DNA of 60,584 nucleotides from Bacillus sp. CGMCC 1.16541 (lineage in GTDB: Bacteria; Bacillota; Bacilli; Bacillales; Bacillaceae_H). Positions 22,906 to 55,041 of the stretch are shown one piece after another. The notes under the pieces are model-generated. The model did no database searches. It worked only from the letters and a program-made list of their open reading frames with translations, and was not told where the DNA came from. Each line of letters opens with the position of its first letter. Positions within the stretch are counted from its first letter, which is position 1. The position numbers were made by a program, and so were the translations under genes. Location of the stretch: assembly GCF_003184905.1 (NCBI RefSeq), contig NZ_KZ821208.1, positions 34,253 through 94,836 on the forward strand, written 5' to 3'.

Positions 22906-22919
22906 GTTCCATTCTTTTT

Positions 22920-22955
22920 GTTTACATGTATACCTAAACAGGTATACATGTAAAC
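22920..22955 (+). promoter_or_regulatory. CstR-type operator with extended 16-bp palindrome
   Basis: GTTTACATGTATACCT (22920-22935), loop AAAC, then the exact complement (22940-22955). The centre ATACCTAAACAGGTAT fits the ATACC-N6-GGTAT motif repeated across this locus. Confidence 0.75.
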
Positions 22956-23005
22956 AAGACAGTATAAACTAAGCAAGGAAAATTCGATTGAACGAGGTGA
23001 AGGTC

Positions 23006-24130
23006 GTGGCAACTGTAAACCACATTTCAGTAAAAGAACTAACAAAAAAGATTTTAAACCATGAAAATCTGTTTATCTTAGACGTGCGAAATAAAGATGC
23101 ATTTGATGATTGGAAAGTCGAAGGGAAGCATGTTCATATTATGAATACACCGTATTTTGACTTAATGGAAGGTATTGATCCAATCGTAAACGACTTACCG
23201 AAAAGTGATCCGATTTATGTGATTTGTGCAAAAGGTGGATCATCGCAAATGGTAGCCGAGCAAATCGCAGAAGCAGGATATGACAACGTGTATTCAGTTG
23301 AAGGTGGGATGAAAGCATGGAGTGAACATTTAGAGCCTGTGAAAATTGGGCATGTCAAAAACGGAGCAATTTATCAATTTGTCCGTGTTGGAAAAGGATG
23401 TTTATCTTACATCATTGAATCAAATGGTGAAGGAGCAATCATTGATACGAATCGCATGTTGGATCAATACGAATCGTTTATTTCCCAACACAATATCAAA
23501 ATTAAACATGTACTCGATACACACCTTCACGCAGACCACATCTCAGGTGGCCGAGAACTAGCAGAAAAGATGGGGGCTATTTACTATTTACCACCAAAAG
23601 ATGCCGAAGAAGTTACATTTGAGTACACACCGTTACAAGATGGTGATGAATACAAAGTGGGAGATACGACCATTAAAGCGATTTATTCACCAGGGCACAC
23701 GATTGGTAGTACGTCATTTGTAGTGGATGATCAATATTTGTTAACAGGCGATATTTTATTTATTGACTCTATCGGTCGCCCGGACTTAGCGGGTAAAGCA
23801 GAAGACTGGGTGGGGGATTTACGTACAACCCTTTATAACCGCTACAAGGAACTAACTGATGATTTACTCGTGTTACCTGCCCACTTTATGACGAGCAAAG
23901 AAATGAATGCAGATGGCAGTGTAGGAGAGAGGCTTGGCATTTTATATCGTGAAAATCATGGTCTATCGATTGCAAGCGAAGGGGAATTTAGAAGTCTTGT
24001 GACCGAAAATTTACCGCCTCAGCCAAACGCATATCAAGACATTCGTCAAGTAAATATGGGGAAAATCAGTCCAGATAACGAAGAAAAGCGTGAAATGGAG
24101 ATTGGTCCGAATCGCTGTGCGGTACGCTAG
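23006..24130 (+). CDS. cstB: Rhodanese - persulfide dioxygenase fusion, copy 1 (CstB-like, 374 aa)
   Basis: The N-terminal rhodanese domain (residues about 8-110) has its active-site loop at Cys74, CAKGGSS. A metallo-beta-lactamase fold follows, of the ETHE1/persulfide dioxygenase type: [44 protein letters not shown] and VLPAHF. The end is [10 protein letters not shown] with a conserved Cys. The enzyme should oxidise persulfides to sulfite with the rhodanese passing sulfane sulfur. Domain order is rhodanese first, unlike S. aureus CstB, so the symbol marks function. The GTG at 23006 is chosen: GAGGTGAAGG precedes it and the length equals copy 2. Confidence 0.88.
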
Positions 24131-24137
24131 TTATGAC

Positions 24138-24178
24138 AAAAGTGTGAAAGTATAATAAAAAGACTTTCGCACTTTTTG
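24138..24178 (+). terminator. Terminator after cstB copy 1
   Basis: AAAAGTG-t-GAAAGT pairs with ACTTTC-g-CACTTTT, then TGTTT. Confidence 0.8.
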
Positions 24179-24191
24179 TTTATTTGTTATT

Positions 24192-24207
24192 ATACCCCTA
24201 TAGGTAT
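24192..24207 (+). promoter_or_regulatory. CstR-type operator
   Basis: ATACCCCTATAGGTAT, 26 bases before the start codon of the CoA-disulfide reductase gene. Identical to the site at 30128. Confidence 0.8.
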
Positions 24208-24232
24208 TTTTAGTTTCGAGGGGGATTATGAA

Positions 24233-25882
24233 ATGAAAAAGATTTTAATTGTTGGAGGCGTTGCAGGAGGGGCTTCTGCGGCTGCTCGATTACGTCGTTT
24301 AAGTGAAAAAAATCATATTGTGATGTTTGAGCGAGGAGAGTATATTTCATTCGCAAACTGTGGGTTACCTTATTATATTGGTGAAGTAATTGAGGAGCGA
24401 AGCAAGTTGCTTGTCCAAACGGTAGAGGGGATGTCAAAGCGATTCAATATGGACATTCGCAACTTAACAGAAATTGTTCGCATTAATCGTGATGAAAAAA
24501 CTGTGACTGCTCGTCATGTTGAAACAGGAGAAGAGTACGACGAATCATATGATATACTCATCTTATCACCAGGCTCAACACCAATTGTACCACCAATCCC
24601 AGGTCTTTCTGAAGCGAGCGCACTATTTACGTTACGCAATGTACCTGACACAGATCGAATTAAACACTACGTAGATAGCGAAAAGCCAAAGCGTGCAGTC
24701 GTTATCGGCGGGGGGTTTATCGGAGTTGAAATGGCTGAAAACCTAATAGAGCGAGGCATTGATGTAACACTTGTTGAAATGGCCAATCAAGTGATGGCAC
24801 CGATTGATGTGGAAATGGCACAAATCGTTCATACACATATGCGTGAGCACGGTGTGAATCTTGTATTAGAAGACGGTGTGCACTCATTTGAACAACAAGG
24901 AAAGATTGTTCGTTTAACGAGTGGTAAAGAGCTTGAAACGGATATGATTATTTTAGCAATTGGTGTTCAACCTGAAAATACACTTGCACGTGATGCGGGG
25001 TTAGACCTCGGCTTACGTGGTGCGATTAAAGTGAATGAGCATTTACAAACGTCGGATTCATCGATTTATGCAGTTGGAGATGTGATTGAGGTAAAAGACT
25101 TTGTGAATGGGTTTGAAACATTTGTGCCGCTTGCATGGCCAGCAAATCGCCAAGGTCGCCTCGTTGCAGATCATATTCATGGGAAAAACGTGCGTTATAA
25201 CGGAACGATGGGAACATCCATTGCGAAAGTTTTTGACTTAACGGTCGCAGCAACCGGTAACAATGAAAAAACGCTAAAACGAATTGGTGTGCCGTATGAA
25301 GTGGTGCACGTTCACCCGAATAATCATGCAGGGTATTATCCAGGTGCCTCTCAAATGACGTTAAAGCTTATCTTTAACAAAGAAACAGGCGAAATTTACG
25401 GTGCACAAGCGATTGGAAAAGAAGGGGTTGATAAACGAATTGACGTCATTGCGACCGCGATAAAAGGTGGATTAACGGTTCAAGCATTACCTGACTTAGA
25501 ATTAGCGTATGCACCACCATTCTCCTCAGCAAAAGATCCGGTTAATATGGCAGGGTATGTCGCAACGAATATCATTGAAGGCACAGTTGAAACCGTTCAA
25601 TGGCATGAAATTGATGAGGTTGTGGCAAATGGGGGCTATTTAATTGACGTTCGTGATGAAAAAGAAGTGGCACGCGGTGCTATCAGCGGCTCTGTTAATA
25701 TTCCCGTCAATGAATTACGCGAACGTTTAAGTGAAGTGCCTACCGATAAAGATCTTTATATCACTTGTCAAGTCGGCTTGCGTGGCTATTTAGCTTCACG
25801 TATTTTAATGGAAAACGGCTTTAAGGTGAAAAACCTAGATGGTGGCTATAAATTATATTCATCTGTGTTTCCAAAAAAATAA
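24233..25882 (+). CDS. cdr: CoA-disulfide/persulfide reductase with C-terminal rhodanese (549 aa)
   Basis: A FAD/NAD(P)-linked pyridine-nucleotide-disulfide reductase: FAD motif VGGVAGGASAAARLRRL, catalytic Cys43 (SFANCGLPYYIG), NADH motif VVIGGGFIGVEMAENL and FAD motif IYAVGDVIEV. Residues about 455-549 form a rhodanese domain with Cys512 (CQVGLRG). The length and fusion match CoADR-Rhd enzymes, which reduce CoA-persulfides and CoA-disulfide. It would return sulfane sulfur to H2S or hand it to the rhodanese. The start at 24233 follows GAGGGGGAT; the ATG five bases earlier is out of frame. Confidence 0.93.
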   Translation: MKKILIVGGVAGGASAAARLRRLSEKNHIVMFERGEYISFANCGLPYYIGEVIEERSKLLVQTVEGMSKRFNMDIRNLTEIVRINRDEKTVTARHVETGEEYDESYDILILSPGSTPIVPPIPGLSEASALFTLRNVPDTDRIKHYVDSEKPKRAVVIGGGFIGVEMAENLIERGIDVTLVEMANQVMAPIDVEMAQIVHTHMREHGVNLVLEDGVHSFEQQGKIVRLTSGKELETDMIILAIGVQPENTLARDAGLDLGLRGAIKVNEHLQTSDSSIYAVGDVIEVKDFVNGFETFVPLAWPANRQGRLVADHIHGKNVRYNGTMGTSIAKVFDLTVAATGNNEKTLKRIGVPYEVVHVHPNNHAGYYPGASQMTLKLIFNKETGEIYGAQAIGKEGVDKRIDVIATAIKGGLTVQALPDLELAYAPPFSSAKDPVNMAGYVATNIIEGTVETVQWHEIDEVVANGGYLIDVRDEKEVARGAISGSVNIPVNELRERLSEVPTDKDLYITCQVGLRGYLASRILMENGFKVKNLDGGYKLYSSVFPKK

Positions 25883-25894
25883 CCATCGATGAAA

Positions 25895-26187
25895 GAGGCT
25901 AGAACATAAGTGTTTCAGTCAATAAGACACCCGAACAATTTATAGTTCGGGTGTTTTTTGATTAAAACAAGTTTAAAAGAATAGTGGAATGGAGCGTAGG
26001 ACACTCGACTCCTGCGGGAAATAGAGGAAAGGCTGAGACCCCACAGGAACGAGGAGGCTCAGCTTCCTCCCCGCGGAAAGCGAGTGACAGGAGCGAAATG
26101 GAACGAACTTGTTGTTGTAACCTAACGATAATAGAAACGGCATTGTTCGTCTTTGAAAAGAAGTTATTTCATTGTGTCCCACCCTCT
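25895..26187 (+). repeat. ~300-bp dispersed element, copy E1
   Basis: Ends GAGGCTaGaACATAA... and ...TTGTGTCCCACCCTC are near inverted repeats. Inside are a terminator hairpin and then a GC-rich core containing GGAGCGTAGGACACTCG, GAGGAGGCTCAGC and CCCCGCGGAAAGCGAGTG. It fills the 379-bp gap between the reductase and ccdA genes. Similar cores are scattered in Bacillaceae genomes. Confidence 0.75.
25926..25959 (+). terminator. Terminator inside repeat E1
   Basis: ACACCCGAAC pairs with GTTCGGGTGT, then TTTTT. It would end the transcript of the CoA-disulfide reductase gene. Confidence 0.8.
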
Positions 26188-26261
26188 TTTTCTGTTCTTC
26201 ATCAAAATTTAACAATTGCGCTTTACAATCAAAAGAAGTAAAAAATAAAGAAGGTGAAGAG

Positions 26262-26978
26262 ATGGAACAATTATCGTTATGGATTGCATTAGGAGCAGGG
26301 GTATTATCATTTTTTTCTCCTTGTATTTTCCCTATTCTCCCTGCTTATTTATCGCACTTAACGGGTGGGAGTATTCAAGAACAAAAATTACACGTAGATC
26401 AAAAGGTGCTTCTTCAACGCTCAATTGCCTTTGTCATTGGCTTTAGCATCGTATTTATTTTAATGGGCGCATCAGCTACCTTTTTAGGGAAATTCTTTCA
26501 AATGAATCGTCAGCTTATTGAACATTTAAGTGGCATTTTAATTGTGGTGTTTGGAATGCAGATGCTGGGGGTGTTTCAGTTTTCATTTTTATTGAAAGAA
26601 AAAAAGTGGGATCATCGTCTTGAAAAACCAAAAAGCTGGTTTTCGTCTGTCTTACTAGGTATTGCATTCGGAAGCGGCTGGACTCCGTGCGTAGGATTAA
26701 CACTATCATCGATTTTACTGCTTGCGAGTTCAAGTGGCACGTTAAGCGAAGGAATGATGCTGTTAGTTGTGTATTCAGTTGGGATGGGTATTCCCTTTTT
26801 AACGATTTCGTATTTGATGACGAAGTCTGTTAAAATCATTCGAACGATTAATCGATACTTAGGAAAGCTTGCGATAGTGAATGGTTCGATTATGATTATT
26901 CTTGGATTGCTTGTGTTTACAGGACAAATGACAAAATTGAGCTCATATTTTGCAAGGCTTACGCCGTTTACATTTTAA
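26262..26978 (+). CDS. ccdA: CcdA-type thiol-disulfide electron transporter (238 aa)
   Basis: A six-span membrane protein of the CcdA/DsbD-beta family that carries electrons from cytosolic thioredoxin to extracytoplasmic thiols. The two redox cysteines are in the expected symmetric positions: Cys21 (FFSPCIFPILPAY) and Cys143 (GWTPCVG). Start ATG 26262 after AAGGTGAAGAG. Sixteen bases separate it from the thioredoxin-like gene, which is its probable partner. It is placed inside the sulfur locus and could keep periplasm-side sulfur-handling thiols reduced; this role is inferred. Confidence 0.92.
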   Translation: MEQLSLWIALGAGVLSFFSPCIFPILPAYLSHLTGGSIQEQKLHVDQKVLLQRSIAFVIGFSIVFILMGASATFLGKFFQMNRQLIEHLSGILIVVFGMQMLGVFQFSFLLKEKKWDHRLEKPKSWFSSVLLGIAFGSGWTPCVGLTLSSILLLASSSGTLSEGMMLLVVYSVGMGIPFLTISYLMTKSVKIIRTINRYLGKLAIVNGSIMIILGLLVFTGQMTKLSSYFARLTPFTF

Positions 26979-26994
26979 ACAGAGGAGTGAAGAG

Positions 26995-27573
26995 ATGAAA
27001 TGGAATGTGTCGTTACTTATGCTAATTGTGGCAGTGATCGGCTTCTTTCTATATAAAGAATATGGAGAACCGAAAGTGACCTTGAATGAGAAGAAAAAGG
27101 AAGAGCAACAACCATTTACGACAACGTCAGTGCAACCAGGAATGGGATTGTTAGAAGGACAACGACCACCAAATATTGAGTTAACGACTCTTGATGGTGG
27201 ATCTTTTCGCTTAAATGACTATCGTGGCAAGAAAGTCATCTTAAACTTCTGGGCAACGTGGTGTCCGCCTTGTAAAGCAGAAATGCCAGATATGCAGAAA
27301 CTGTATGAGAAGTACGGCAAAGAGAATGTTGAGATTGTGGCGGTTAACTTAACTCAAGCTGAAAAGAATAAGGAAGACATTCAACGGTTTAAAGAAGAAT
27401 ATGGGCTGACATTTATTATTCCACTCGATGAAACAGGTACCATAGCAAATCAATACAATGTGTATTCCATTCCAACAAGTTATATTCTTGATGAAGAAGG
27501 GTTAATTCAGCAACAGATAATAGGGCCAATGACGTATGAGTGGATGGAAGAGCAGATACAAAGCAAGCAATAA
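26995..27573 (+). CDS. Membrane-anchored TlpA/ResA-like thioredoxin (192 aa)
   Basis: An N-terminal uncleaved anchor (residues about 5-22) exposes a thioredoxin-fold domain outside the membrane. The redox motif WATWCPPCKAEMP has Cys90 and Cys93, and SIPTSYILDEEG carries the cis-proline. The length and the variable linker fit ResA/TlpA/YneN proteins, which accept electrons from CcdA. Start ATG 26995 after GAGGAGTGAAGAG. It sits between ccdA and a two-component system, as one operon with short gaps. Confidence 0.92.
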   Translation: MKWNVSLLMLIVAVIGFFLYKEYGEPKVTLNEKKKEEQQPFTTTSVQPGMGLLEGQRPPNIELTTLDGGSFRLNDYRGKKVILNFWATWCPPCKAEMPDMQKLYEKYGKENVEIVAVNLTQAEKNKEDIQRFKEEYGLTFIIPLDETGTIANQYNVYSIPTSYILDEEGLIQQQIIGPMTYEWMEEQIQSKQ

Positions 27574-27586
27574 GTAGGTGAAATTG

Positions 27587-28279
27587 ATGTCAAAAACATT
27601 ATTAGTGGTTGAAGATGATGCAATGCTTCAGCAACTTATGGTTATTTACTTTCAAAAAGCAGGTTTTCATGTCGTTACCGCTTCAACAGGGAAGGAAGCA
27701 ATCGCTGTTTTTGAACGAGAACATCCATGTTTTGTTATTTTAGATTTGATGCTACCTGAAATGTCTGGAGAAGAGGTGTGTCAATACATACGAGAGACAT
27801 ATCAAAGTGATGTACCCATCATTATGGTAACGGCTAAAATTGATGAACAAGACCGAATTAATGGATTGAAAATGGGGGCGGATGACTACGTCGTAAAACC
27901 ATTTAGCCCTGAAGAACTTGTAATAAGAGTAGAGACAGTGTTGCGGCGAGCGACTCACCATTGTCAAAAAATCGAGATAGGTTTACTTACTTTAAAACCG
28001 AGAAAGCATGAAATTTGGTTAGGTCATCACAAGCTTCAACTAACAGTCTCTGAATTTTTATTATTGAAAGAGCTAATGTTGAATGTAAATCAAGTGTTAT
28101 CAAGAGAGCAATTAATACAAGCAATTGATCCTCTTCATGAAAAAGAAATTTTTGAGCGAACGATTGATGTGCATGTGAAAAATATTCGTGAGAAGCTTAA
28201 ACAGAACGAGTTTTTTGGCGTGACAATTCAAACTGTAAGGGGAGTGGGATATAAACTTGATTCAAAAACCTCGTCGTAA
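27587..28279 (+). CDS. OmpR/PhoB-family response regulator (230 aa)
   Basis: The receiver domain has acidic residues (VVEDD), phospho-acceptor Asp53 (VILDLMLPEMSGEE) and VTAKIDEQDRINGLKMGADDYVVKPF. The C-terminal winged helix is of the OmpR type (TVSEFLLLKELMLN, REQLIQAI, IDVHVKNIREKL, VRGVGYKL). I start at ATG 27587 with TAGGTG upstream. It overlaps the kinase gene by 23 bases. Its stimulus is unknown; the operon suggests thiol redox or sulfur stress. Confidence 0.93.
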   Translation: MSKTLLVVEDDAMLQQLMVIYFQKAGFHVVTASTGKEAIAVFEREHPCFVILDLMLPEMSGEEVCQYIRETYQSDVPIIMVTAKIDEQDRINGLKMGADDYVVKPFSPEELVIRVETVLRRATHHCQKIEIGLLTLKPRKHEIWLGHHKLQLTVSEFLLLKELMLNVNQVLSREQLIQAIDPLHEKEIFERTIDVHVKNIREKLKQNEFFGVTIQTVRGVGYKLDSKTSS

Positions 28280-29342
28280 CGTGTGGAAAACAAAGATTTT
28301 TTGGGAATTAACGACAATTAACGCTATAGTTATTGCAATTGTTATTTGGATTGCAGGTGTGTCAGTGAAAGATTTTTCGTGTGTGTTAGCGAACGAACTA
28401 AATATGATTGGAGATCAGCGTCAAGCTTTTTTTAATGAAACGATGGACTTTTATTTGTTACGTGCGAGCATTCTTGCTTTCTTCGTCGCAGCTATCATTC
28501 ACTACATATGGATAAAGCGTATTGTCGTTCCGCTCCAAACTCTTTCGGAGGCAACAAAGCGGATGAGGGAGGAGAAAGATACAGATCTTATTCCTGTTGT
28601 CACACAAAATGAAATTGGTCAGTTAACAGAGCAATTTAATCACTTAATCATTAAAATGAAGCGTAGTGAGGCACTTCGTAAGCAAATGACCGCAGACTTA
28701 GCGCATGAAGTTCGTACGCCACTTTCAAACCTTACAGGGTATTTAGAGGCGTTGAAAAATGATGTAATCGAACCAGATAAACAAGTGCTGACATCGTTGC
28801 ATGCTGAAGCCGAACGATTAAAAAAAATGATTGAACAGCTTTATCAACTGTCAGAGCGTGAGTGGGCTGAGTATAAAAGGCATGACACAAATGAATCTTG
28901 TGCCATTAAACCTCTTATAAATGAAATGATTGACCTTTATACCATTCAACTTAAAAAGCAGAGTGTACAACTAAATAAATTAATTGAACCGGCATCCATT
29001 ATGGCCTCAAAAGATCGAATGAAGCAAGTGATTGGTAATTTACTGGACAACGCTATTCGTTATGCAGTTGAAGATACAACGATATTGATTAGCGGAAAAA
29101 AGAAAGAAGGTATCTATATAATCTGCGTTGCGGGTAAAGGTCAAGAAATTCCTCCTGATACATCCGAACAACTTTTTGAGCGATTTTACCGAGTTGATTC
29201 TTCACGTAGTCGAGCATCTGGTGGTAATGGATTAGGTTTAGCAATTGTGAAAGAATTAATGACCCAACAAGGCGGACGTGTATATGTAAAAACAGATGGC
29301 ATATATCATCAATTTTATCTTGAAATTCCTTTAATAAAGTAG
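28257..29342 (+). CDS. Sensor histidine kinase with unusual G1 box (361 aa)
   Basis: Two membrane spans (about 17-37 and 68-88) bracket a short extracytoplasmic loop. A HAMP-like segment, a HisKA dimerisation helix with His150 (ADLAHEVRTPLSNL) and a HATPase domain follow (N box MKQVIGNLLDNAIRYA, F box LFERFYRVD, G2 GNGLGLAIVKEL). The G1 box reads CVAGKGQEIPPD where kinases normally have DxGxGIP, so the adenine-contacting Asp is replaced by Ala. Autokinase activity may be reduced. TTG start at 28257 after GGAGTGGG. Probable partner of the preceding regulator. Confidence 0.88.
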   Translation: MIQKPRRNVWKTKIFWELTTINAIVIAIVIWIAGVSVKDFSCVLANELNMIGDQRQAFFNETMDFYLLRASILAFFVAAIIHYIWIKRIVVPLQTLSEATKRMREEKDTDLIPVVTQNEIGQLTEQFNHLIIKMKRSEALRKQMTADLAHEVRTPLSNLTGYLEALKNDVIEPDKQVLTSLHAEAERLKKMIEQLYQLSEREWAEYKRHDTNESCAIKPLINEMIDLYTIQLKKQSVQLNKLIEPASIMASKDRMKQVIGNLLDNAIRYAVEDTTILISGKKKEGIYIICVAGKGQEIPPDTSEQLFERFYRVDSSRSRASGGNGLGLAIVKELMTQQGGRVYVKTDGIYHQFYLEIPLIK

Positions 29343-29489
29343 AATGATTTTACAATTTTAAGCTATTTACAAAGAAATGAGAAATGAATATTGACCATTC
29401 TAGCACAACCATAAGCGGTAGTTTGCTGATACTTACAACGTCTCGATAGATCATCATGATCTGCGTATAAAAAGAAAGTAAAATAAGTA

Positions 29490-29576
29490 GTTGACATTAT
29501 ACCTATAGGGGTATAAAATAAACATTGTCAGCGATACTTCTTCTTACAAAAAGAAAGAAGATGTGCTTTATGAAAA
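29490..29576 (+). repeat. Direct repeat 1 of the cstR promoter region (~87 bp)
   Basis: Carries TTGACA, a 17-bp spacer with the operator, then a TAAAAT -10 and the hairpin-like CTTCTTCTTACAAAAAGAAAGAAG. It is nearly identical to 29614-29700. Confidence 0.85.
29491..29519 (+). promoter_or_regulatory. Distal cst promoter with embedded CstR operator
   Basis: -35 TTGACA (29491-29496), operator ATACCTATAGGGGTAT (29499-29514) filling the 17-bp spacer, -10 TAAAAT (29514-29519). Bound CstR would directly block RNA polymerase. Confidence 0.8.
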
Positions 29577-29613
29577 CAAAAGTAACTAACTTAAAAGGAA
29601 ATACAAATAAACA

Positions 29614-29700
29614 GTTGACATTATACCTATAGGGGTATAAAATAAACATTATCAGTAATACTTCTTCTTACAAAAAGAAAGAAGATATGCTTTATTAAAA
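29614..29700 (+). repeat. Direct repeat 2 of the cstR promoter region (~87 bp)
   Basis: Second copy, offset by about 124 bp, with only a few substitutions (for example GTCAGCGATAC versus ATCAGTAATAC). The rest of 29343-29832 has no recognisable gene. Confidence 0.85.
29615..29643 (+). promoter_or_regulatory. Proximal cst promoter with embedded CstR operator
   Basis: -35 TTGACA (29615-29620), operator ATACCTATAGGGGTAT (29623-29638), -10 TAAAAT (29638-29643), the same architecture as the distal copy. Confidence 0.8.
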
Positions 29701-29832
29701 AAGGAATTTTTTTAAAAAGGATTGCTTATAAAATAGGTAGAAAGCAATCATACGTTGCAATGTATTAAACAATAACGTGTAAAGAAGCATATAAAGCATA
29801 AACACAACCAAATAGAAAGGGGTCATTTAATT

Positions 29833-30093
29833 ATGGAATACAATGCGCAAGTAAAAAACCGATTAAAGCGTATGGAAGGTCAGCTTCGCGGTATTTTGAA
29901 AATGATGGATGAAGAGAAAGACTGCAAAGAAATCATTACCCAGTTATCAGCGGTTCGTTCAGCGGTTGATCGTACAGTCGGTGTCATTGTTAGTTCAAAC
30001 TTAGTCGAATGCGCACTAGAAGCGGAAAGAAACGGTCAACCAGCCGATGAGATGATTAAAGAGGCGGTTAACTTACTTGTAAAAAGTCGATAA
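29833..30093 (+). CDS. cstR: CstR, persulfide-sensing repressor (86 aa)
   Basis: A CsoR/RcnR-family four-helix repressor. The two sensing cysteines are at Cys31 (EKDCKEI) and Cys60 (NLVECALEAE). The copper-binding His of CsoR, expected at position 61, is Ala here, which distinguishes CstR from CsoR. Reaction with organic persulfides or polysulfide links the two cysteines and releases DNA. Start ATG at 29833 after GAAAGGGG. It lies in the middle of genes preceded by ATACC-N6-GGTAT sites and is the obvious regulator, including of itself. Confidence 0.93.
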   Translation: MEYNAQVKNRLKRMEGQLRGILKMMDEEKDCKEIITQLSAVRSAVDRTVGVIVSSNLVECALEAERNGQPADEMIKEAVNLLVKSR

Positions 30094-30100
30094 CAAAGTG

Positions 30101-30129
30101 TTGACAACTTTTTTTATAACTGGTAATAT
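30101..30129 (+). promoter_or_regulatory. Promoter of the tusA-dsrE operon
   Basis: -35 TTGACA (30101-30106), a 17-bp spacer, -10 TAATAT (30124-30129), with the operator overlapping the -10 and start. Confidence 0.75.
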
Positions 30130-30143
30130 ACCCCTATAGGTAT
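30128..30143 (+). promoter_or_regulatory. CstR-type operator
   Basis: ATACCCCTATAGGTAT, identical to the site before the CoA-disulfide reductase gene. Confidence 0.8.
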
Positions 30144-30172
30144 AAAACAAACAAAAACACGGAGGGATACAA

Positions 30173-30400
30173 ATGAATGTAGATAAAGTATTAGATGCAA
30201 AAGGATTAGCGTGTCCAATGCCAATTGTGAAAACAAAAAAAGCAATGAACGAATTAGAGTCAGGTCAAGTGTTAGAAATTCATACAACGGATAAAGGTGC
30301 AAAAAGTGATTTAACAGCATGGGCAAAATCAGGTGGCCATGAGTTATTACAACATGAAGAAGAAGGAAATGTATTTAAGTTCTGGATTCAAAAAGGCTAA
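30173..30400 (+). CDS. TusA-like sulfur carrier, copy 1 (75 aa)
   Basis: A SirA/TusA fold with the sulfur-accepting Cys14 in LDAKGLACPMPIVKTKKAM and the closing segment AWAKSGGHELLQHEE..FKFWIQK. These small proteins carry persulfide between rhodaneses, DsrE-type proteins and dioxygenases. Start ATG 30173 after GGAGGG. First gene of the main sulfur operon. A near twin is encoded at 34103. Confidence 0.93.
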   Translation: MNVDKVLDAKGLACPMPIVKTKKAMNELESGQVLEIHTTDKGAKSDLTAWAKSGGHELLQHEEEGNVFKFWIQKG

Positions 30401-30417
30401 TTTTTTTACAAACTTAT

Positions 30418-30433
30418 ATACCTATACAGGTAT
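30418..30433 (+). promoter_or_regulatory. CstR-type operator before dsrE copy 1
   Basis: ATACCTATACAGGTAT, a symmetric match to ATACC-N6-GGTAT. A TTTACA-like -35 lies upstream, but the -10 is unclear. Confidence 0.7.
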
Positions 30434-30460
30434 AAGTAAACACACCAAGGAGGACATACA

Positions 30461-30937
30461 ATGGAAAAGAAAAAAACAACAATCGTCTTATTTAGCGGTG
30501 ATTATGATAAAGCAATGGCTGCGTATATTATCGCAAACGGTGCAGCAGCTTACGATCACGAGGTAACGATTTTCCACACGTTCTGGGGATTAAACGCACT
30601 ACGTAAAGAAGAATTAGTACCAGTGAAAAAAGGTTTCATGGAAAAAATGTTCGGAAAAATGATGCCGCGTGGTGCTGATAAAATGGGCTTATCAAAAATG
30701 AACTTTGCAGGTATGGGTCCGAAAATGATTAAAGATGTGATGAAAAAGCATAACGCCGTTCCATTACCACAGTTAATCGAAATGGCACAAGAACAAGATA
30801 TTAAACTTGTTGCATGTACGATGACAATGGATTTACTAGGTTTACAAAAAGAAGAGTTATTAGACAACATTGATTATGCTGGAGTTGCAGCTTATTTAGC
30901 GGATGCTGAAGAAGGTAACGTCAACTTATTTATCTAA
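30461..30937 (+). CDS. DsrE/DsrF/DrsH-like sulfur carrier, copy 1 (158 aa)
   Basis: A Rossmann-like DsrE fold: IVLFSGDYDKAMAAYIIANGAAA at the start and KLVACTMTMDLLGLQKEEL near the end, in which the single conserved Cys is the expected persulfide site. A methionine/lysine-rich insertion (about residues 57-95, MEKMFGKMMPRGADKMGLSK) distinguishes it from the shorter copy at 32483 and could be a membrane- or partner-contact helix. Start ATG 30461 after AAGGAGG. Co-transcribed with the TusA-like and rhodanese genes. Confidence 0.9.
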   Translation: MEKKKTTIVLFSGDYDKAMAAYIIANGAAAYDHEVTIFHTFWGLNALRKEELVPVKKGFMEKMFGKMMPRGADKMGLSKMNFAGMGPKMIKDVMKKHNAVPLPQLIEMAQEQDIKLVACTMTMDLLGLQKEELLDNIDYAGVAAYLADAEEGNVNLFI

Positions 30938-30953
30938 AAAGGAGAGAGGCTCA

Positions 30954-31313
30954 TTGGAATACATTCAATACGTACTCTTTGGATTAGTCGCTTTCTTTTT
31001 ACTAAGACGTTTATTACCAACAAATGGTGTGCGAAATATTACAACAGCTCAACTAAAAAATGAGCTGAATGATAAAAATAAGCAATATATCGATGTTCGT
31101 ACACCTGGTGAGTTTAAAGGAAGAAACATTCGAGGATTTAAAAACATCCCGCTACAACAGTTGCCAAATCGAATAAATGAACTATCGAAAGAAAAAGAAG
31201 TCGTGGTTATTTGTCAAAGTGGCATGAGAAGTAATGCAGCAAGTAGACAGCTCGTGAAAAAAGGATTTAAGCAAGTTACAAACGTAAAAGGCGGCATGAA
31301 CGCTTGGCATTAA
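30954..31313 (+). CDS. Membrane-anchored rhodanese (119 aa)
   Basis: An N-terminal span (MEYIQYVLFGLVAFFLLRRL) precedes one rhodanese domain with active-site loop CQSGMRS and the terminal VKGGMNAWH. The sulfurtransferase domain would face the cytosol or the outside depending on topology; the positive-inside rule (RR after the span) favours a cytosolic domain. TTG start at 30954 after GGAGAG; a longer frame overlaps the dsrE gene. Confidence 0.9.
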   Translation: MEYIQYVLFGLVAFFLLRRLLPTNGVRNITTAQLKNELNDKNKQYIDVRTPGEFKGRNIRGFKNIPLQQLPNRINELSKEKEVVVICQSGMRSNAASRQLVKKGFKQVTNVKGGMNAWH

Positions 31314-31322
31314 GGAGGAAAA

Positions 31323-31622
31323 ATGATGAGAGAAATTTCACCAAAAGAAGTAGAACAATTGATCAATGAAGGAAAAAAATTGAACATGATTGATGTACGT
31401 GAAGTTGATGAAGTAGCAGAAGGGAAAATTCCTGGAGCAATCAATATTCCGTTAGGATTACTTGAATTTCGTATGAATGAATTAGACAAAGCAAACGAAT
31501 ATATTATGATTTGTCGTTCAGGTGGCCGTAGCGGTCGTGCATCACAATTTTTAGCATCACAAGGTTTTAACGTCATCAACATGACAGGCGGTATGCTTGC
31601 ATGGGAAGGACGTACTGAATAA
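31323..31622 (+). CDS. Single-domain rhodanese (99 aa)
   Basis: A GlpE/PspE-like sulfurtransferase: MIDVREVDEVAEGKIPGAINIPLG, active-site loop CRSGGRSGRA and final MTGGMLAWEG. The loop CRSGGRS is typical of sulfane-sulfur transferases. Start ATG at 31323 (a second ATG follows) after AAGGAGG. Gene gap of 9 bp from the membrane rhodanese. Confidence 0.93.
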   Translation: MMREISPKEVEQLINEGKKLNMIDVREVDEVAEGKIPGAINIPLGLLEFRMNELDKANEYIMICRSGGRSGRASQFLASQGFNVINMTGGMLAWEGRTE

Positions 31623-31638
31623 AATTTTTAGTGAACAT

Positions 31639-31654
31639 ATACCTTAGGAGGTAA
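31639..31654 (+). promoter_or_regulatory. CstR-like motif merged with a ribosome binding site
   Basis: ATACCTTAGGAGGTAA fits ATACC-N6-GGTAa, and its second half contains the AGGAGG of the next gene. Whether CstR binds it is unknown. Confidence 0.45.
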
Positions 31655-31658
31655 TGAT

Positions 31659-32222
31659 ATGAAAGCAAACGTAACGTTAGATGCAAAAGGATTAGCATGT
31701 CCAATGCCGATTGTGAAAACAAAAAAAGCGATGAATGATGTAGAAGCAGGGCAAGTATTAGAAGTGCAAGCGACTGATAAAGGGTCAAAAGCAGATCTTC
31801 AAGCGTGGGCTGAACGTACAGGTCATCAATATTTAGGCACGATTGAAGAAGGCGACGTGTTAAAGCACTTTTTACGTAAATCATCCAATGATGAAGCAAT
31901 TGAGAAAAAGCATCCACACGTTGTAACTAACGAACAATTAACAGCGAAGCTTGATGCTAATGAAGACATTGTTGTGTTAGATGTACGTGAAGAAGCAGAA
32001 TATGGATTTAATCATATTCCAAACGCTGTGAATATTCCATTGGGTGAGTTAGAGGCTCGTGTGAATGAATTAAACAAAGACGCAAATATCTTCATTGTAT
32101 GTCGTACAGGAAGCCGCAGTGACTTAGCAGCGCAAAAACTAACAGAGCAAGGCTTTAAAAACGTGTTGAACGTTGTACCTGGTATGAGTCAATGGACTGG
32201 ACAGACAACGAGCAAAAACTAA
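31659..32222 (+). CDS. TusA-rhodanese fusion (CstA-like, 187 aa)
   Basis: The N-terminal TusA domain (about 1-75; LDAKGLACPMPIVKTKKAM with the carrier Cys) is joined by a short linker to a rhodanese domain (about 88-187; VLDVREEAEYGFNHIPNAVN, loop CRTGSRSD, VVPGMSQWTG). Fusion lets sulfane sulfur pass directly between the two cysteines, as in S. aureus CstA, although the domain set differs. Start ATG 31659 is spaced from AGGAGG by 5 bases. Confidence 0.93.
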   Translation: MKANVTLDAKGLACPMPIVKTKKAMNDVEAGQVLEVQATDKGSKADLQAWAERTGHQYLGTIEEGDVLKHFLRKSSNDEAIEKKHPHVVTNEQLTAKLDANEDIVVLDVREEAEYGFNHIPNAVNIPLGELEARVNELNKDANIFIVCRTGSRSDLAAQKLTEQGFKNVLNVVPGMSQWTGQTTSKN

Positions 32223-32236
32223 AAGGAGTAAGTGAT

Positions 32237-32470
32237 ATGAAGTCTATAACCGTTTATACGACAACAAGATGTCCGTATTGTGTAATGTTAAAAAACTTTT
32301 TATCCGATCAAGACATTCCATTTAACGAAGTGAATGTTGAGCGTGACCCTGCCCTAATGCAAAAGCTTGTCAATACGACAGGACAAATGGGTGTGCCACA
32401 AACAAATGTAAACGGCACATGGGTTATCGGCTTTGACCCACAACAAATTATGATAGCACTACAAAACTAG
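32237..32470 (+). CDS. Glutaredoxin-family protein (77 aa)
   Basis: A thioredoxin-fold glutaredoxin with CPYC in TTTRCPYCVMLKNFL and the cis-Pro loop MGVPQTNVNG. It could reduce persulfides formed on the neighbouring carriers using low-molecular-weight thiol. Start ATG 32237 after AAAAGGAG; the upstream in-frame region belongs to the fusion gene. Fifteen bases downstream of it and 12 bases before the second dsrE-like gene. Confidence 0.92.
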   Translation: MKSITVYTTTRCPYCVMLKNFLSDQDIPFNEVNVERDPALMQKLVNTTGQMGVPQTNVNGTWVIGFDPQQIMIALQN

Positions 32471-32482
32471 GAGGCATTTAAC

Positions 32483-32875
32483 ATGAGCAATAAAGTAGCA
32501 ATTATCGCAAGTAACGGTGGATTATTCGATGCATACAAAGTATTTAATATCGCAACGGCAGCAGCAGCTACCGAGCAAGAAGTAGCGATTTTCTTCACAT
32601 TTGAAGGATTAAACTTAATTCATAAACAAGCAAACGCAAATCTTCCAATGCCAGAAGGAAAAGAGCATTTTGCAGAAGGATTTGAAAAAGCAAACGTACC
32701 ATCCATTCCTGAACTAGCAGCAATGGCACAAGAAATGGGCGTGAAATTCATCGGTTGTCAAATGACAATGGACGTAATGGGTTTAGAAAAGGACGCGTTT
32801 GTCGATGGAATTGAAGTTGGCGGAGCGGTTACCTTTTTAGAGTTCGCCAAAGATGCTATGACATTAACATTTTAA
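32483..32875 (+). CDS. DsrE/DsrF-like sulfur carrier, copy 2 (130 aa)
   Basis: A short DsrE-fold protein: VAIIASNGGLFDAYKVFNIATAA and KFIGCQMTMDVMGLEKDAFV with the conserved Cys, ending GGAVTFLEFAKDAMTLTF. It lacks the Met/Lys-rich insertion of copy 1. DsrE-like proteins pass sulfur to TusA-type carriers. ATG at 32483 after GGAGG. It precedes the second persulfide dioxygenase fusion by 41 bp. Confidence 0.9.
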   Translation: MSNKVAIIASNGGLFDAYKVFNIATAAAATEQEVAIFFTFEGLNLIHKQANANLPMPEGKEHFAEGFEKANVPSIPELAAMAQEMGVKFIGCQMTMDVMGLEKDAFVDGIEVGGAVTFLEFAKDAMTLTF

Positions 32876-32894
32876 TATTTTTTTAACTACTTAT

Positions 32895-32910
32895 ATACCG
32901 TGGGGGGTAA
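32895..32910 (+). promoter_or_regulatory. CstR-like motif merged with a ribosome binding site
   Basis: ATACCGTGGGGGGTAA fits ATACC-N6-GGTAa. Its G-run is the only available ribosome binding site for the ATG at 32917. Confidence 0.45.
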
Positions 32911-32916
32911 TTTAAA

Positions 32917-34044
32917 ATGGCAGTAAAACCAATGACAGCGAAAGAAGTAACGAAAAAGGTTATCAACAAAGAATCATTCTTTATTTTAGATGTTCGTAAC
33001 GAAGATGCATTTCAAGATTGGAAAATTGAAGGTGAAAACTTCAACTACTTAAACGTTCCCTATTTCGACTTATTAGACGGCGTGGAAGAAATCATGGATC
33101 AACTTCCGAAAGATCAAGAGATTTTAGTTGTGTGTGCAAAAGAAGGTTCATCCATTATGGTGGCAGAGATGCTTTCAGATGAAGGATTGGATGTTGCTTA
33201 TTTACAAGGCGGTATGCGCGCATGGAGCGAGTATTTAGAGCCAGTTAAAGTAGGAGATTTAAAAGATGGCGGTGAGATGTACCAATTCGTACGTATCGGT
33301 AAAGGCTGCTTATCGTACATGGTTGTTTCAAATGGAGAAGCAGCAATCATCGACTCTACACGTATGACAGATGTATACATTGAGTTCGCTAAAAGCATGA
33401 ATGTAAATATCACGCACGTATTTGATACACACTTACATGCTGACCATATTTCAGGTGGCCGCGTAATTGCCGAAAAAACAGGTGCAACATACTGGTTACC
33501 ACCTAAAGATGCAGAAGAAGTTACATTTGAATATGAAGCGTTAGAAGACGGTCGTGATGTGACAATTGGAAACACAACGATTAACATTCATGCATTGTAT
33601 TCACCAGGTCACACAATCGGTTCAACATCATTTATTGTTGATGAGAAGTACTTGTTATCAGGTGATATTTTATTCATTGATTCAATCGGTCGTCCTGATT
33701 TAGCAGGTATGGCAGAAGATTGGGTTGGTGACTTACGCGAAAGCTTATACAAACGCTACAAAGCATTATCAGATGAGCTAGTCGTGTTGCCTGCACACTT
33801 TATGATTATCGAAGAGTTAAATGAAGACGGAAGTGTTGCGAAAAAGTTAGGGACACTTTATGCGGAAAACCACGGTTTAAACATTGAAGACGAAGAAGAA
33901 TTCCGCAAACTAGTGACAGAGAACTTACCACCACAACCAAATGCATATCAGGAAATTCGTCAAACAAACATGGGGAAAATCACACCAGATGAAGATAAAC
34001 AACGTGAAATGGAGATTGGTCCAAACCGTTGTGCAGTTCGCTAA
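32917..34044 (+). CDS. cstB: Rhodanese - persulfide dioxygenase fusion, copy 2 (CstB-like, 375 aa)
   Basis: Collinear with the 23006 gene: N-terminal rhodanese (Cys73, VVCAKEGSS) then an MBL-fold persulfide dioxygenase ([42 protein letters not shown]) and the same ending [10 protein letters not shown]. The rhodanese loop is CAKEGSS rather than CAKGGSS, so the two copies may differ in sulfur acceptor. It should oxidise persulfides produced by the TusA/DsrE/rhodanese relay to sulfite, which TauE could export. ATG at 32917. Confidence 0.9.
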
Positions 34045-34053
34045 ACCATAACA

Positions 34054-34079
34054 ATTGGAGGGATGAAGCTCCCTCCAAT
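34054..34079 (+). other. Intercistronic hairpin
   Basis: ATTGGAGGG (34054-34062) pairs perfectly with CCCTCCAAT (34071-34079) and has no T-run. It may adjust expression between the dioxygenase and the last tusA. Confidence 0.6.
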
Positions 34080-34102
34080 GAATGAATACTTAGGAGGTTT
34101 TA

Positions 34103-34333
34103 ATGATGGAAGCAACAAAAGTATTAGACGCAAAAGGATTAGCATGTCCAATGCCAATCGTACGAACAAAAAAAGCAATGAATGAATTACAGTCAGGTGA
34201 CGTCTTAGAAATTCACGCAACAGATAAAGGGGCAAAAAGCGACTTAACAGCTTGGGCAAAATCGGGCGGTCACGAATTAGTGAAGCACGAAGAAGCAGGC
34301 GATGTGTTTAAATTCTGGATTAAGAAGGGCTAA
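34103..34333 (+). CDS. TusA-like sulfur carrier, copy 2 (76 aa)
   Basis: Nearly the same protein as the 30173 product: KVLDAKGLACPMPIVRTKKAM with the carrier Cys and AWAKSGGHELVKHEEAGDVF. Start ATG 34103, five bases after AGGAGG. Its leader ATACTTAGGAGGTTT resembles a degraded version of the operator/RBS hybrids at 31639 and 32895. Last small carrier of the operon. Confidence 0.93.
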   Translation: MMEATKVLDAKGLACPMPIVRTKKAMNELQSGDVLEIHATDKGAKSDLTAWAKSGGHELVKHEEAGDVFKFWIKKG

Positions 34334-34340
34334 TGAGAGA

Positions 34341-34450
34341 GAGCTTTCTCGATGAGAGTGGACAACGTCTCATTTGAGAAAGCTCGCAACATCCCTTGCC
34401 TATTGATCCGTAAAAAAAGTGGATAGATAGGCAAGGGATTTTGTTTGAAT
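34341..34450 (+). repeat. Palindromic repeat copy D, preceded by a second hairpin
   Basis: First hairpin: GAGCTTTCTC-g-ATGAGA with TCTCAT-tt-GAGAAAGCTC (34341-34385). Then copy D: CATCCCTTGCCTAT...ATCC pairs with GGAT...ATAGGCAAGGGAT, ending TTTTGTTT. It probably helps end the sulfur operon. Confidence 0.65.
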
Positions 34451-34510
34451 AGTCTCTTTGTTTCGTCTTGAACTGACATATGATCTGCTTAGATTAAAGG
34501 AGGGCTTATC

Positions 34511-35287
34511 ATGGATTTTGCATTTATTATGACTATTTTCTTAATCGGGTTTATCGGCTCTTACATTTCAGGAATGCTTGGAATTGGTGGTTCTATTATT
34601 AAATACCCAATGCTTTTATACATTCCGCCATTATTTGGCTTAGCTGCGTTTAGTGCGCATGAAGTATCAGGGATTAGCGCTGTGCAAGTGTTTTTTGCGA
34701 CAATCGGTGGTGTGTGGGCATATCGTAAAGGTGGCTATTTAAACAAAAGTCTCATTGCCTATATGGGTGTGAGTATTTTAATTGGTAGCTTTATCGGTGG
34801 ATTCGGCTCACGTGTCATGTCAGAAAGCGGCATTAACGTCGTGTACGGAATTTTAGCGTTAATTGCAGCGGTGATGATGTTTATACCGAAAAAAGGCATC
34901 GACGACATCCCGCTTGATCAAGTGACGTTTAACAAATGGTTAGCGGCTGTGTTAGCATTAATCGTCGGAGTTGGTTCAGGTATCGTTGGAGCAGCAGGAG
35001 CGTTTTTACTCGTACCGATTATGCTCGTTGTGTTAAAAATTCCAACGCGCATGACAATTGCTTCATCGCTTGCGATTACATTTATTTCATCCATTGGCGC
35101 AACAATCGGTAAAATCACGACAGGTCAGGTTGACTACTTCCCTGCACTGATTATGGTTGTTGCAAGCTTAATTGCATCGCCACTAGGTGCGATGGCAGGT
35201 AAAAAGATTAACACAAAAATTTTACAAGTTGTTTTAGCTTTATTAATCTTCGCAACAGCGGTGAAAATTTGGATGGATATTTTATAA
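34511..35287 (+). CDS. tauE: TauE/SafE-family sulfite/sulfur-anion exporter (258 aa)
   Basis: A membrane protein with about eight spans and the two inverted half-repeats of the family: [21 protein letters not shown] near the start and [20 protein letters not shown] in the second half. In the cst context TauE most likely removes sulfite or another anion made by the persulfide dioxygenases. ATG at 34511 after GGAGGG. It follows the repeat region rather than a clear CstR site, so its control by CstR is uncertain. Confidence 0.92.
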
Positions 35288-36247: not shown

Positions 36248-36544
36248 GAGGCTGAGACATAAGTGTTTCAGTCGATAAGAAGAGGATGTCCCAAAAGGTA
36301 TAAACTTTTGGGCACCCTCTTTTTAGGTTAGCTTCTAAAATTAGTCCGTTGATTTCCGTTCCAGGCGCTTCGCTTTCCGCGGGGCTGGCGCTGAGCCTCC
36401 TCATCGCTTCGCTCTTGCGAGGTCTCACCTGACCAGCTGCGCCCGCAGGAGTCTTCGCGCTTTCCACTTCAATCAACTCAGCTTACGATATTTTTTTGCG
36501 CAAAAAATACAAGAAAATCCCTTTTTCGTTATGTCCTACTCTCT
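36248..36544 (+). repeat. ~300-bp dispersed element, copy E2 (core inverted)
   Basis: The left end GAGGCTGAGACATAAGTG and the right end TTCGTTATGTCCTACTCTC are in the same orientation as E1 and E4. The GC-rich core (CGCTTTCCGCGGGG, GCGCTGAGCCTCCTC, CCGCAGGAGTC) is the reverse complement relative to those copies. It fills the 329-bp gap between convergent genes. Confidence 0.75.
36281..36326 (+). terminator. Terminator inside repeat E2
   Basis: AGAGG-at-GTCCCAAAA pairs with TTTTGGG-ca-CCCTCT, then TTTT. Confidence 0.75.
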
Positions 36545-40233: not shown

Positions 40234-40530
40234 GGAGACTGAGGCATAACGAGATGATTCCCTCTCAAAGACGAGCCATCACTTTTCTATAATCGTTAGA
40301 TTGTAAAAGAAAGTTCATTCCATTGCGCTCTAGCCACTCGCTTTCTGCGGGGAGAAACCTGAGTCTCCTTGTGCCTGCGAATCTCCTCAGCTTTTCCTCT
40401 ATTTCCTGCAGGAGTCGAGTGTCCTACGCTCCATTCTACTATTCTTTTCAAAGTGTTTTTCGAACCAACAAAAAAGATAACTCACAATACTTCAAATCGA
40501 TTATTTACTAAGAAACTGATGTCTCAACCT
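40234..40530 (-). repeat. ~300-bp dispersed element, copy E3 (whole element inverted)
   Basis: Read on the minus strand it has the E1/E4 order: GAGACATCAG-type left end, core GGAGCGTAGGACACTCGACT ... CCCCGCAGAAAGCGAGTGG, then GTTATGCCTCAGTC. It fills the 348-bp gap between convergent genes. Confidence 0.72.
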
Positions 40531-54733: not shown

Positions 54734-55041
54734 GAGGCTGGGACATAAGTGTGTCAGTTGATAATAAATCCGAACTATTTATAATATACTCTATTTATAG
54801 TTCGGGTATTTTTGGTTAAAAAACCAGTTTAAAAGAATAGTGGAATGGAGCGTAGGAAACTCGACTCTTGCGGGAAATAGAGGAAAGACTGAGACCCCGC
54901 AGGAACGAGGAGGCTCGGGTTCCTCCCTGCGGAAAGCGAGTGACTGGAGCGAAATGGAATGAACTTGTTGTTGTAACATCACGATGACAGAAACGGTATT
55001 GTTCGTTTTTGAGAAGGAATCATTTCGTTATGTCCCACTCT
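54734..55041 (+). repeat. ~300-bp dispersed element, copy E4
   Basis: Starts GAGGCTGGGACATAAGTG, has a CCGAACTAT/ATAGTTCGG hairpin, then the core GGAATGGAGCGTAGGAAACTCG, GAGACCCCGCAGGAACGAGG and CTGCGGAAAGCGAGTGACTG, and ends TTATGTCCCACTCTC. It lies between divergent genes; the rest of 54567-55184 has no gene I can see. Confidence 0.78.

Follow-up and report, generated by a model that had tools for sequence, protein, structure and literature searches.

How does a Gram-positive cell sense reactive sulfur or thiol stress outside its membrane as well as within the cytoplasm? The question is raised by a gene cluster at positions 22,920 to 35,287 of a 60,584-nucleotide stretch of DNA (the window) from Bacillus sp. 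CGMCC 1.16541 (contig NZ_KZ821208.1, positions 34,253 to 94,836), in which sulfane-sulfur genes apparently controlled by the repressor CstR enclose genes for a CcdA membrane protein, a TlpA-type thioredoxin, a response regulator and a histidine kinase. With a probability of roughly 0.65, the cluster holds two adjacent circuits: a CstR sulfane-sulfur circuit and, embedded in it, a cysteine-based CcdA-TlpA-regulator-kinase circuit. To our knowledge, sensing of this kind outside the membrane is poorly understood in Gram-positive bacteria. The added value of the locus lies in the embedded module: with a single conserved cysteine, a DNA box and a short operon, it allows outside sensing to be tested directly.

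The original prediction described a large CstR-controlled locus with redundant sulfur relay proteins. Its gene inventory was incomplete, having overlooked the four genes at 26262-29342. Like the other genes and the six operator-like sites of the cluster, these lie on the + strand. They encode CcdA, a DsbD_TM/CcdA membrane thiol-electron conduit (26262..26978); a TlpA/ResA-type thioredoxin with an N-terminal hydrophobic segment and a WCPPC motif (26995..27573); an OmpR-type response regulator, in which Pfam finds Response_reg and Trans_reg_C (27578..28279); and a HAMP histidine kinase whose short outer hairpin bears Cys42 (28257..29342). The Pfam matches of the kinase are HAMP, HisKA and HATPase only, with no match to PAS.

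The embedded module is a recurring unit. A profile of the sensor half of the kinase, searched against 299 genomes of the order, gave 65 places at 73.8 bits or more, followed by a drop to 52 bits, where most matches were to HAMP only; in the wider phylum, one of 118 other genomes has a match at E 1e-15. The family was sampled as 64 members (the window left out), with 16 control HAMP kinases drawn from the weaker matches, and neighbourhoods were counted within 10 kb, as far as contigs allow. A thioredoxin gene lies near all 64 family kinases and ccdA near 62, whereas neither was found near any of the 16 controls. A fifth gene, for a 216-amino-acid membrane-like protein without a Pfam match, accompanies 60 of the 64 modules, and the commonest order is 216-amino-acid protein-CcdA-TlpA-regulator-kinase (30/64).

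The module is also linked to sulfur genes. At least two core sulfur genes are found near 24 of the 64 kinases and near none of the 16 controls, one of which has a single core gene (Fisher's test, p = 0.002); an estimate based on placement by size expects about 1/64. The motif ATACC-N6-GGTAT, discussed below as a CstR operator, occurs near 26/64 kinases, compared with 2/16 controls. On a kinase tree of 65 rows, with the window counted as sulfur-side, the sulfur label changes 13 times, and at least 10 of these changes are forced by well-supported branches. Thus the association was gained or lost repeatedly. The label is also clustered on the tree, as shuffling gave a mean of 20.1 changes. Kinase matches were found in 3917 plasmid records, and the top four all have a persulfide dioxygenase gene within 10 kb; in these four stretches (three annotated, one scanned by tblastn) CcdA, TlpA, regulator and kinase lie together with sulfur genes. 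When modules with at least one core sulfur gene nearby (26) were compared with the other 38, OsmC genes were found near 11/26 and 2/38, respectively, 5'-nucleotidase/metallophosphatase genes near 10/26 and 2/38, and DUF302 genes near 10/26 and 6/38. A SoxB identity for the 5'-nucleotidase neighbour was considered and rejected, the domains seen being metallophosphatase/5'-nucleotidase only.

The most constant feature of the kinase is its hairpin cysteine. Five kinases from other CstR loci are 28-33% identical to the window kinase, and all six share a cysteine just past the first membrane helix. The residue is found in 74/74 aligned kinases (the 64, the window, the five loci and the four plasmids), and the only other position as constant within residues 21-130 is Pro92, which belongs to the HAMP part. 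In a low-confidence AlphaFold model (mean predicted local distance difference test score 62.8), used for the helical hairpin only, a short turn joins two long helices, 6-47 and 53-104, so that Cys42 falls shortly before the first of them ends. The conserved cysteine is predicted to face the exterior, and could enable the cell to perceive external sulfur or thiol stress.

A direct repeat precedes the module in much of the family. TTCA-N7-TTCA was found upstream of the first gene of the module in 31/64 cases, compared with 8-11 for the largest dyad in five shuffles. Extended to TTTCAT-N5-TTTCAT, and counted in the same sequences from which it was derived, the box is present with up to one mismatch in 26/64 (0.3 expected by shuffling) and with up to two in 37/64 (3.3 expected). 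A scoring hit of this type occurs in 1/16 control loci, and a second hit is present in a small number of family loci, in two cases before an OsmC gene. In 25 hand-picked genomes, the strict box TTTCATNAAAYTTTCAY has 25 copies, compared with one for the reversed control, and three genomes have none; 21 copies stand at the start of a module, one at a kinase-adjacent OsmC gene and three elsewhere. One of these unlinked copies precedes a gene for a WCPPC TlpA-like protein, with an OsmC-like gene on the opposite strand (both identified by eye). A hexamer within two mismatches of TATAAT lies 10 bases past the box in 18/25 and 8 bases past it in 10/25, compared with 0-4 at seven other distances. In the window, the predicted response-regulator box is CTTCATCAAAATTTAAC (26197..26213), a diverged copy of the family box, 10 nucleotides before TACAAT (26224-26229) and 48 nucleotides before the ccdA ATG. 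Allowing up to one mismatch, it is the sole copy in the genome.

The second circuit centres on CstR, a YrkD-like protein (29833..30093) with Cys31, Asn56 and Cys60. It belongs to the DUF156/CsoR family (Pfam PF02583, 86 bits), and its nearest solved chains are 7mq1 and 7mq2, titled csoR in the PDB; 7MQ2 is named CstR in PMC9774590. The original prediction was right about Cys31 and Cys60; the Ala61 that it also cited is the next residue after Cys60. Asn56, and not Ala61, occupies the column filled by histidine in the aligned chains of CsoR, InrS and 6ahx and in the genome's own CsoR-like protein, whose neighbours are chaperone-like and ATPase-like open reading frames (named by eye). The window protein has the two cysteines, and lacks the metal-binding histidine, by which CstR/YrkD repressors are recognised. 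The genome encodes a second CstR-type protein without the histidine (locus L117, G000 C21:48103-48336). Its gene adjoins one that by eye encodes a rhodanese-like membrane protein, and a one-mismatch operator, ATACAGGTAGGGGTAT, lies upstream.

Candidate operators for CstR are provided by six exact ATACC-N6-GGTAT sites, all confirmed, with the first moved from the previously given 22929 to 22930. They lie before pdo1 (22930..22945), before the coenzyme A (CoA) reductase gene (24192..24207), in two promoter copies before cstR (29499..29514 and 29623..29638), before tusA1 (30128..30143) and before dsrE2 (30418..30433). Shuffling gives an expectation of 0.01 per window, none of 100 shuffles reached six, and all six exact matches in the 3,966,524-base genome fall in the cluster, with none for the reversed pattern. 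When two mismatches are allowed the window has 23 sites against 14.9 expected, which is near chance. Sites with one mismatch at 28727 (within the kinase gene) and at 31639 and 32895 (overlapping ribosome-binding sites, by eye) were rejected as operators. Three of the six lie in the spacers of sigma-A-like promoters. The assignment is clear at 29499 and 29623, each within TTGACA-17-TAAAAT with one mismatch, and fair at 22930, which fills the 16-base spacer of TTTACA/TATACA with three mismatches. The cstR promoter region (29480-29720) is tandemly duplicated, its two similar copies lying 124 bp apart and each having TTGACA and an operator-like site; M. iocasae has one. Site 1 lies at the centre of a palindrome (22918-22957) whose 18-bp arms (TTGTTTACATGTATACCT...) are longer, by eye, than those at the other five sites.

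Related loci were collected from 84,980 named genomes, in which a search for the TusA-rhodanese fusion found 91 relatives; 80 loci were retained. These loci, all from Bacillales, span 1.56 Mb, some being clipped by contig ends, and neighbouring genes were identified by tblastn with the window proteins. Beside the fusion lie genes for a persulfide dioxygenase (80), DsrE (79), TauE (75), CstR (67), a single rhodanese (67), CoA reductase (17) and glutaredoxin (13). CstR-type loci are thus widespread and modular in Bacillales. The original prediction proposed looking in other genomes for this gene set with the 16-bp motif; the motif occurs in 76/80 loci. There are 190 sites, compared with 2 for the reversed control and 0 to 4 for each of seven other dyads. 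A TTGACA/TATAAT pair (spacing 16-18, up to three mismatches) accompanies 113/190 sites, compared with 56/2400 random places and 32/190 on the opposite strand; with up to four mismatches there are 141 such sites, 89 of them in a common register in which the operator fills a 17-base spacer. Genome-wide counts of the motif were dropped as proof, as some genomes of the same genus show it no more often than the reversed control (for example, 8 vs 8), and only enrichment at CstR loci is used here. Control of the locus by CstR is well supported in silico by its cysteines, by this enrichment and by the common register; binding and derepression would follow by analogy with characterised homologs.

The gene set named in the original prediction is real, Pfam supporting every named domain in a scan of 20 window proteins. 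It consists of pdo1, a YrkH-like rhodanese-metallo-beta-lactamase fusion (22988..24130, with a possible alternative GTG start at 23006, by eye); a CoA-disulfide (persulfide) reductase with a C-terminal rhodanese (24233..25882); cstR; tusA1, a TusA carrier (30173..30400); dsrE2, YrkE-like and of the DsrE2 family (30461..30937); a rhodanese with an N-terminal hydrophobic segment (30903..31313); a single-domain rhodanese (31323..31622); a YrkF-like TusA-rhodanese fusion (31659..32222); a CPYC glutaredoxin (32234..32470); a second DsrE-like carrier (32483..32875); pdo2, a second YrkH-like rhodanese-metallo-beta-lactamase fusion (32917..34044); a third TusA (34103..34333); and a YrkJ-like TauE/SafE exporter (34511..35287). 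Judged by domain content, without alignment to the B. licheniformis proteins, homologs of yrkD, yrkE, yrkF, yrkH, yrkI and yrkJ are clustered here. As for the suggested relay from DsrE through TusA and rhodanese to dioxygenase, the genes are present and the order is not demonstrated; an order of rhodanese, TusA, DsrE is cited for Allochromatium in PMC9918477.

The products of pdo1 and pdo2 are, as judged from their sequences, persulfide dioxygenases. The HxHxDH metal motif of the metallo-beta-lactamase fold reads THLHADH in both, and THxHADH in 146 of 158 proteins; their PDB relatives include ETHE1 and BpPRF. In pdo2, Cys73, Cys131 and Cys372 are invariant among 47 aligned sequences. YrkH-type dioxygenases terminate in GPNRCA and a few further residues, with the cysteine present in 158/158 proteins (filtered by length and identity, both window proteins counted). 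This C-terminal residue, Cys372 in the pdo2 product, is possibly a third sulfur-carrying cysteine. Three haloarchaeal relatives have GPNNCAA, and haloarchaeal plasmids (L261, L262) carry TusA, DsrE, a homologous metallo-beta-lactamase-rhodanese protein and YeeE-type transporters together. Among solved structures, the reductase matches best to the 3ICR/3ICS set, at 879 bits, and to 8A56, at 615 bits, the latter titled CoA-persulfide reductase; the 3ICR/3ICS type is described as a CoA-disulfide reductase, B. anthracis CoADR-RHD, in PMC9405070.

Taken together, these features suggest the following scheme. CstR/YrkD would repress at ATACC-N6-GGTAT before pdo1, the CoA-persulfide reductase gene, its own gene (two sites) and the run from tusA1 and dsrE2 to tauE, with the operator filling the -35/-10 spacer at pdo1 and at both cstR promoters. 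Sulfane sulfur would cross-link Cys31 and Cys60, freeing the promoters. Sulfur could then pass via the cysteines of TusA, DsrE and rhodanese proteins to the two persulfide dioxygenases, while cluster products would also reduce CoA persulfide and TauE would export sulfite. In the module, Cys42 of the outer hairpin may sense the thiol or reactive-sulfur state outside the membrane. The response regulator would bind the TTTCAT-N5-TTTCAT-type box before its own operon, raising the CcdA/TlpA conduit, whose substrates for reduction at the outer face might be disulfides, polysulfides or persulfides. Labour would thus be divided between CstR, for cytoplasmic sulfane sulfur, and the cysteine-based two-component system, for an outer-face thiol-reducing conduit.

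A bolder version of this scheme is put forward only tentatively, as one that may well prove wrong. It holds that the module represents an undescribed cysteine-based two-component family, in which a kinase that lacks a folded sensor domain relies on a single hairpin cysteine to monitor reactive sulfur or the thiol redox state outside and drives a CcdA/TlpA conduit of its own; the cysteine would possibly be paired across the kinase dimer, as CstR pairs Cys31 and Cys60. If this is true, the module beside CstR loci would make an outside/inside sensor pair for reactive sulfur species. A literature search found no title or abstract opening describing a CcdA/TlpA two-component module, although absence from print is unproven.

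Several observations weigh against the two-circuit reading. No core sulfur gene lies within 10 kb of 38/64 modules, and 40/64 have fewer than two; the module is therefore not only for sulfane sulfur. The six seeds of the kinase profile all carry the hairpin cysteine. The window box is diverged and ranks second by score within the window, and two of the three unlinked strict boxes show no thiol gene. The 216-amino-acid protein was not found in the window's genome, in a search without a positive control. M. iocasae retains ccdA and a box identical to that of the window, with diverged surroundings farther out, and has no such kinase; at this locus it also lacks the thioredoxin and regulator. Another regulator may thus read the box, or the loss of the kinase may be recent. 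In that locus (L007 6831-7666), MerR-like and SRPBCC-like genes (by eye) replace those for thioredoxin, regulator and kinase. On the CstR side, the sites at 24192 and 30128, which have no clear promoter hexamers, and that at 30418, where they are weak, score 4-5 promoter mismatches, as many random places do. An exact site lies within 400 bp before cstR in just 40 of the 67 loci with an aligned cstR, the window motif scan found no exact site before ccdA, and the second CstR-type protein could share or own the six sites.

The main rival explanation is that the four genes form an unrelated copper- or metal-responsive module, travelling with CstR clusters on resistance islands, whose kinase cysteine binds Cu(I). 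The model would be DsbRS-dsbDEG of P. aeruginosa, where DsbRS governs disulfide-bond genes in response to copper (PMC10141476). That system likewise places envelope thiol-disulfide genes under two-component control, but it is Gram-negative and answers to copper; the likeness is one of logic. Two plasmid copies of the module do lie near arsenic or copper genes, in one case with copper genes about 10 kb off. However, tblastn (E 1e-6) with the N-terminal 383 amino acids of the genome's own copper-ATPase-like protein and its 68-amino-acid chaperone-like neighbour matched 0/64 module loci, a limited test, above all for the short query. The 24 modules adjoined by sulfur genes, with the repeated changes on the tree, also argue against copper, as does the sole unlinked box with a plausible target, which precedes a TlpA-like gene and not a metal pump. 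We regard this explanation as unlikely.

It is similarly improbable that the module is an ordinary CcdA/ResA thiol pathway, of the cytochrome-c or spore type, with a housekeeping regulator, and that its closeness to CstR is functionally meaningless. Repeated placement beside CstR-type genes, seen for 0/16 control kinases, and the invariance of the kinase cysteine speak against it, even though the best-matching curated relatives of the thioredoxin are ResA and StoA (both below cut-offs) and 40 of the 64 modules have at most one core sulfur gene nearby. A single CstR regulon, with read-through from the CoA-reductase promoter into the module, would fit the shared strand and the position of ccdA as the next gene after that for the reductase. 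This is the least probable of the three, as ccdA is separated from the reductase gene by 379 bp that contain a repeat element and a terminator-like hairpin (recognised by eye, not by a terminator scan), and the module has a box with a -10-like hexamer at the 10-base spacing of the family. The two-circuit reading is preferred to all three; for the module, linkage, cysteine conservation and the box are observed, whereas what the kinase senses, binding of the box by the regulator and what the conduit reduces are predictions of the scheme.

The sulfur cluster itself is not new, being a large form of the yrkD/CstR locus known from Bacillus. In the S. aureus cst operon, carriers are fused in cstA and sqr belongs to the same operon. 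The window, in contrast, has separate carrier genes (the one fusion being TusA-rhodanese), several transcription units and no sqr in the locus. The rhodanese domain is N-terminal to the metallo-beta-lactamase domain in the window dioxygenases, whereas it follows it in the solved chain 3r2u, which we take to be an S. aureus protein. CstR, a persulfide dioxygenase-rhodanese and TusA/rhodanese carriers are common to both (PMC5480029, PMC9774590, PMC9918477). Closer still is the B. licheniformis MW3 cluster yrkD-yrkEFHIJ-ydfQ-nreBC-sqr-pdo, which, as described in PMC9918477, shares with the window a CstR-like YrkD, a DsrE homolog, rhodanese/TusA carriers, a YrkH-type dioxygenase and TauE, and likewise holds an internal two-component system. 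Its YrkD-repressed promoters flank yrkD; there, YrkD occupies sites on either side of its gene, and this binding is abolished by elemental sulfur and by mutation of the sites (PMC9918477). The two-component systems differ, NreBC having a PAS domain whereas the window has an OmpR/HAMP pair with the hairpin cysteine and no PAS. Compared with that account, the window adds ccdA and TlpA, the CoA reductase, glutaredoxin and a second dioxygenase, and lacks sqr in the locus. In E. faecalis, CstR is reported to control a CoA-persulfide reductase-rhodanese (CoAPR) and the rhodaneses RhdA and RhdB; the set is smaller, and the portion of PMC9405070 consulted mentions neither a persulfide dioxygenase nor DsrE for it.

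The expansion of the locus is accordingly not an unusual one. With 13 sulfur genes, the window ties with two other loci, while 5/80 have more (median 9, maximum 22). Given this and its known yrkD-type content, the cluster is a large but ordinary member. In some relatives (L016, L086, L012) two sulfur clusters lie in tandem, bringing a single locus to 21-22 sulfur genes. No sqr was found among the 20 window proteins scanned with Pfam. The genome has 32 Pyr_redox_2 matches, and of three scanned with NCBIfam besides the cluster reductase, two have SQR-like matches of 81 and 62 bits, well under the cut-off of 525.

The CcdA/TlpA pair resembles in function SoxV and SoxW of Sox clusters, a CcdA and an extracytoplasmic thioredoxin placed with sulfur genes; unlike these, the window module has a dedicated two-component system attached. 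Sox genes, including SoxYZ, were absent from the Pfam hits of the 20 proteins, a scan that included no search aimed at SoxYZ. For a Thermus Sox locus governed by a CsoR-family regulator, PMC10318464 lists SoxW together with a CcdA gene that this regulator does not control.

A G+C-rich repeat of about 103 bp occurs in the window at 25984-26086, 40335-40436 and 54840-54942, with a fragment at 36370-36402, the copies being 86-93% alike. One copy sits in the gap upstream of ccdA.

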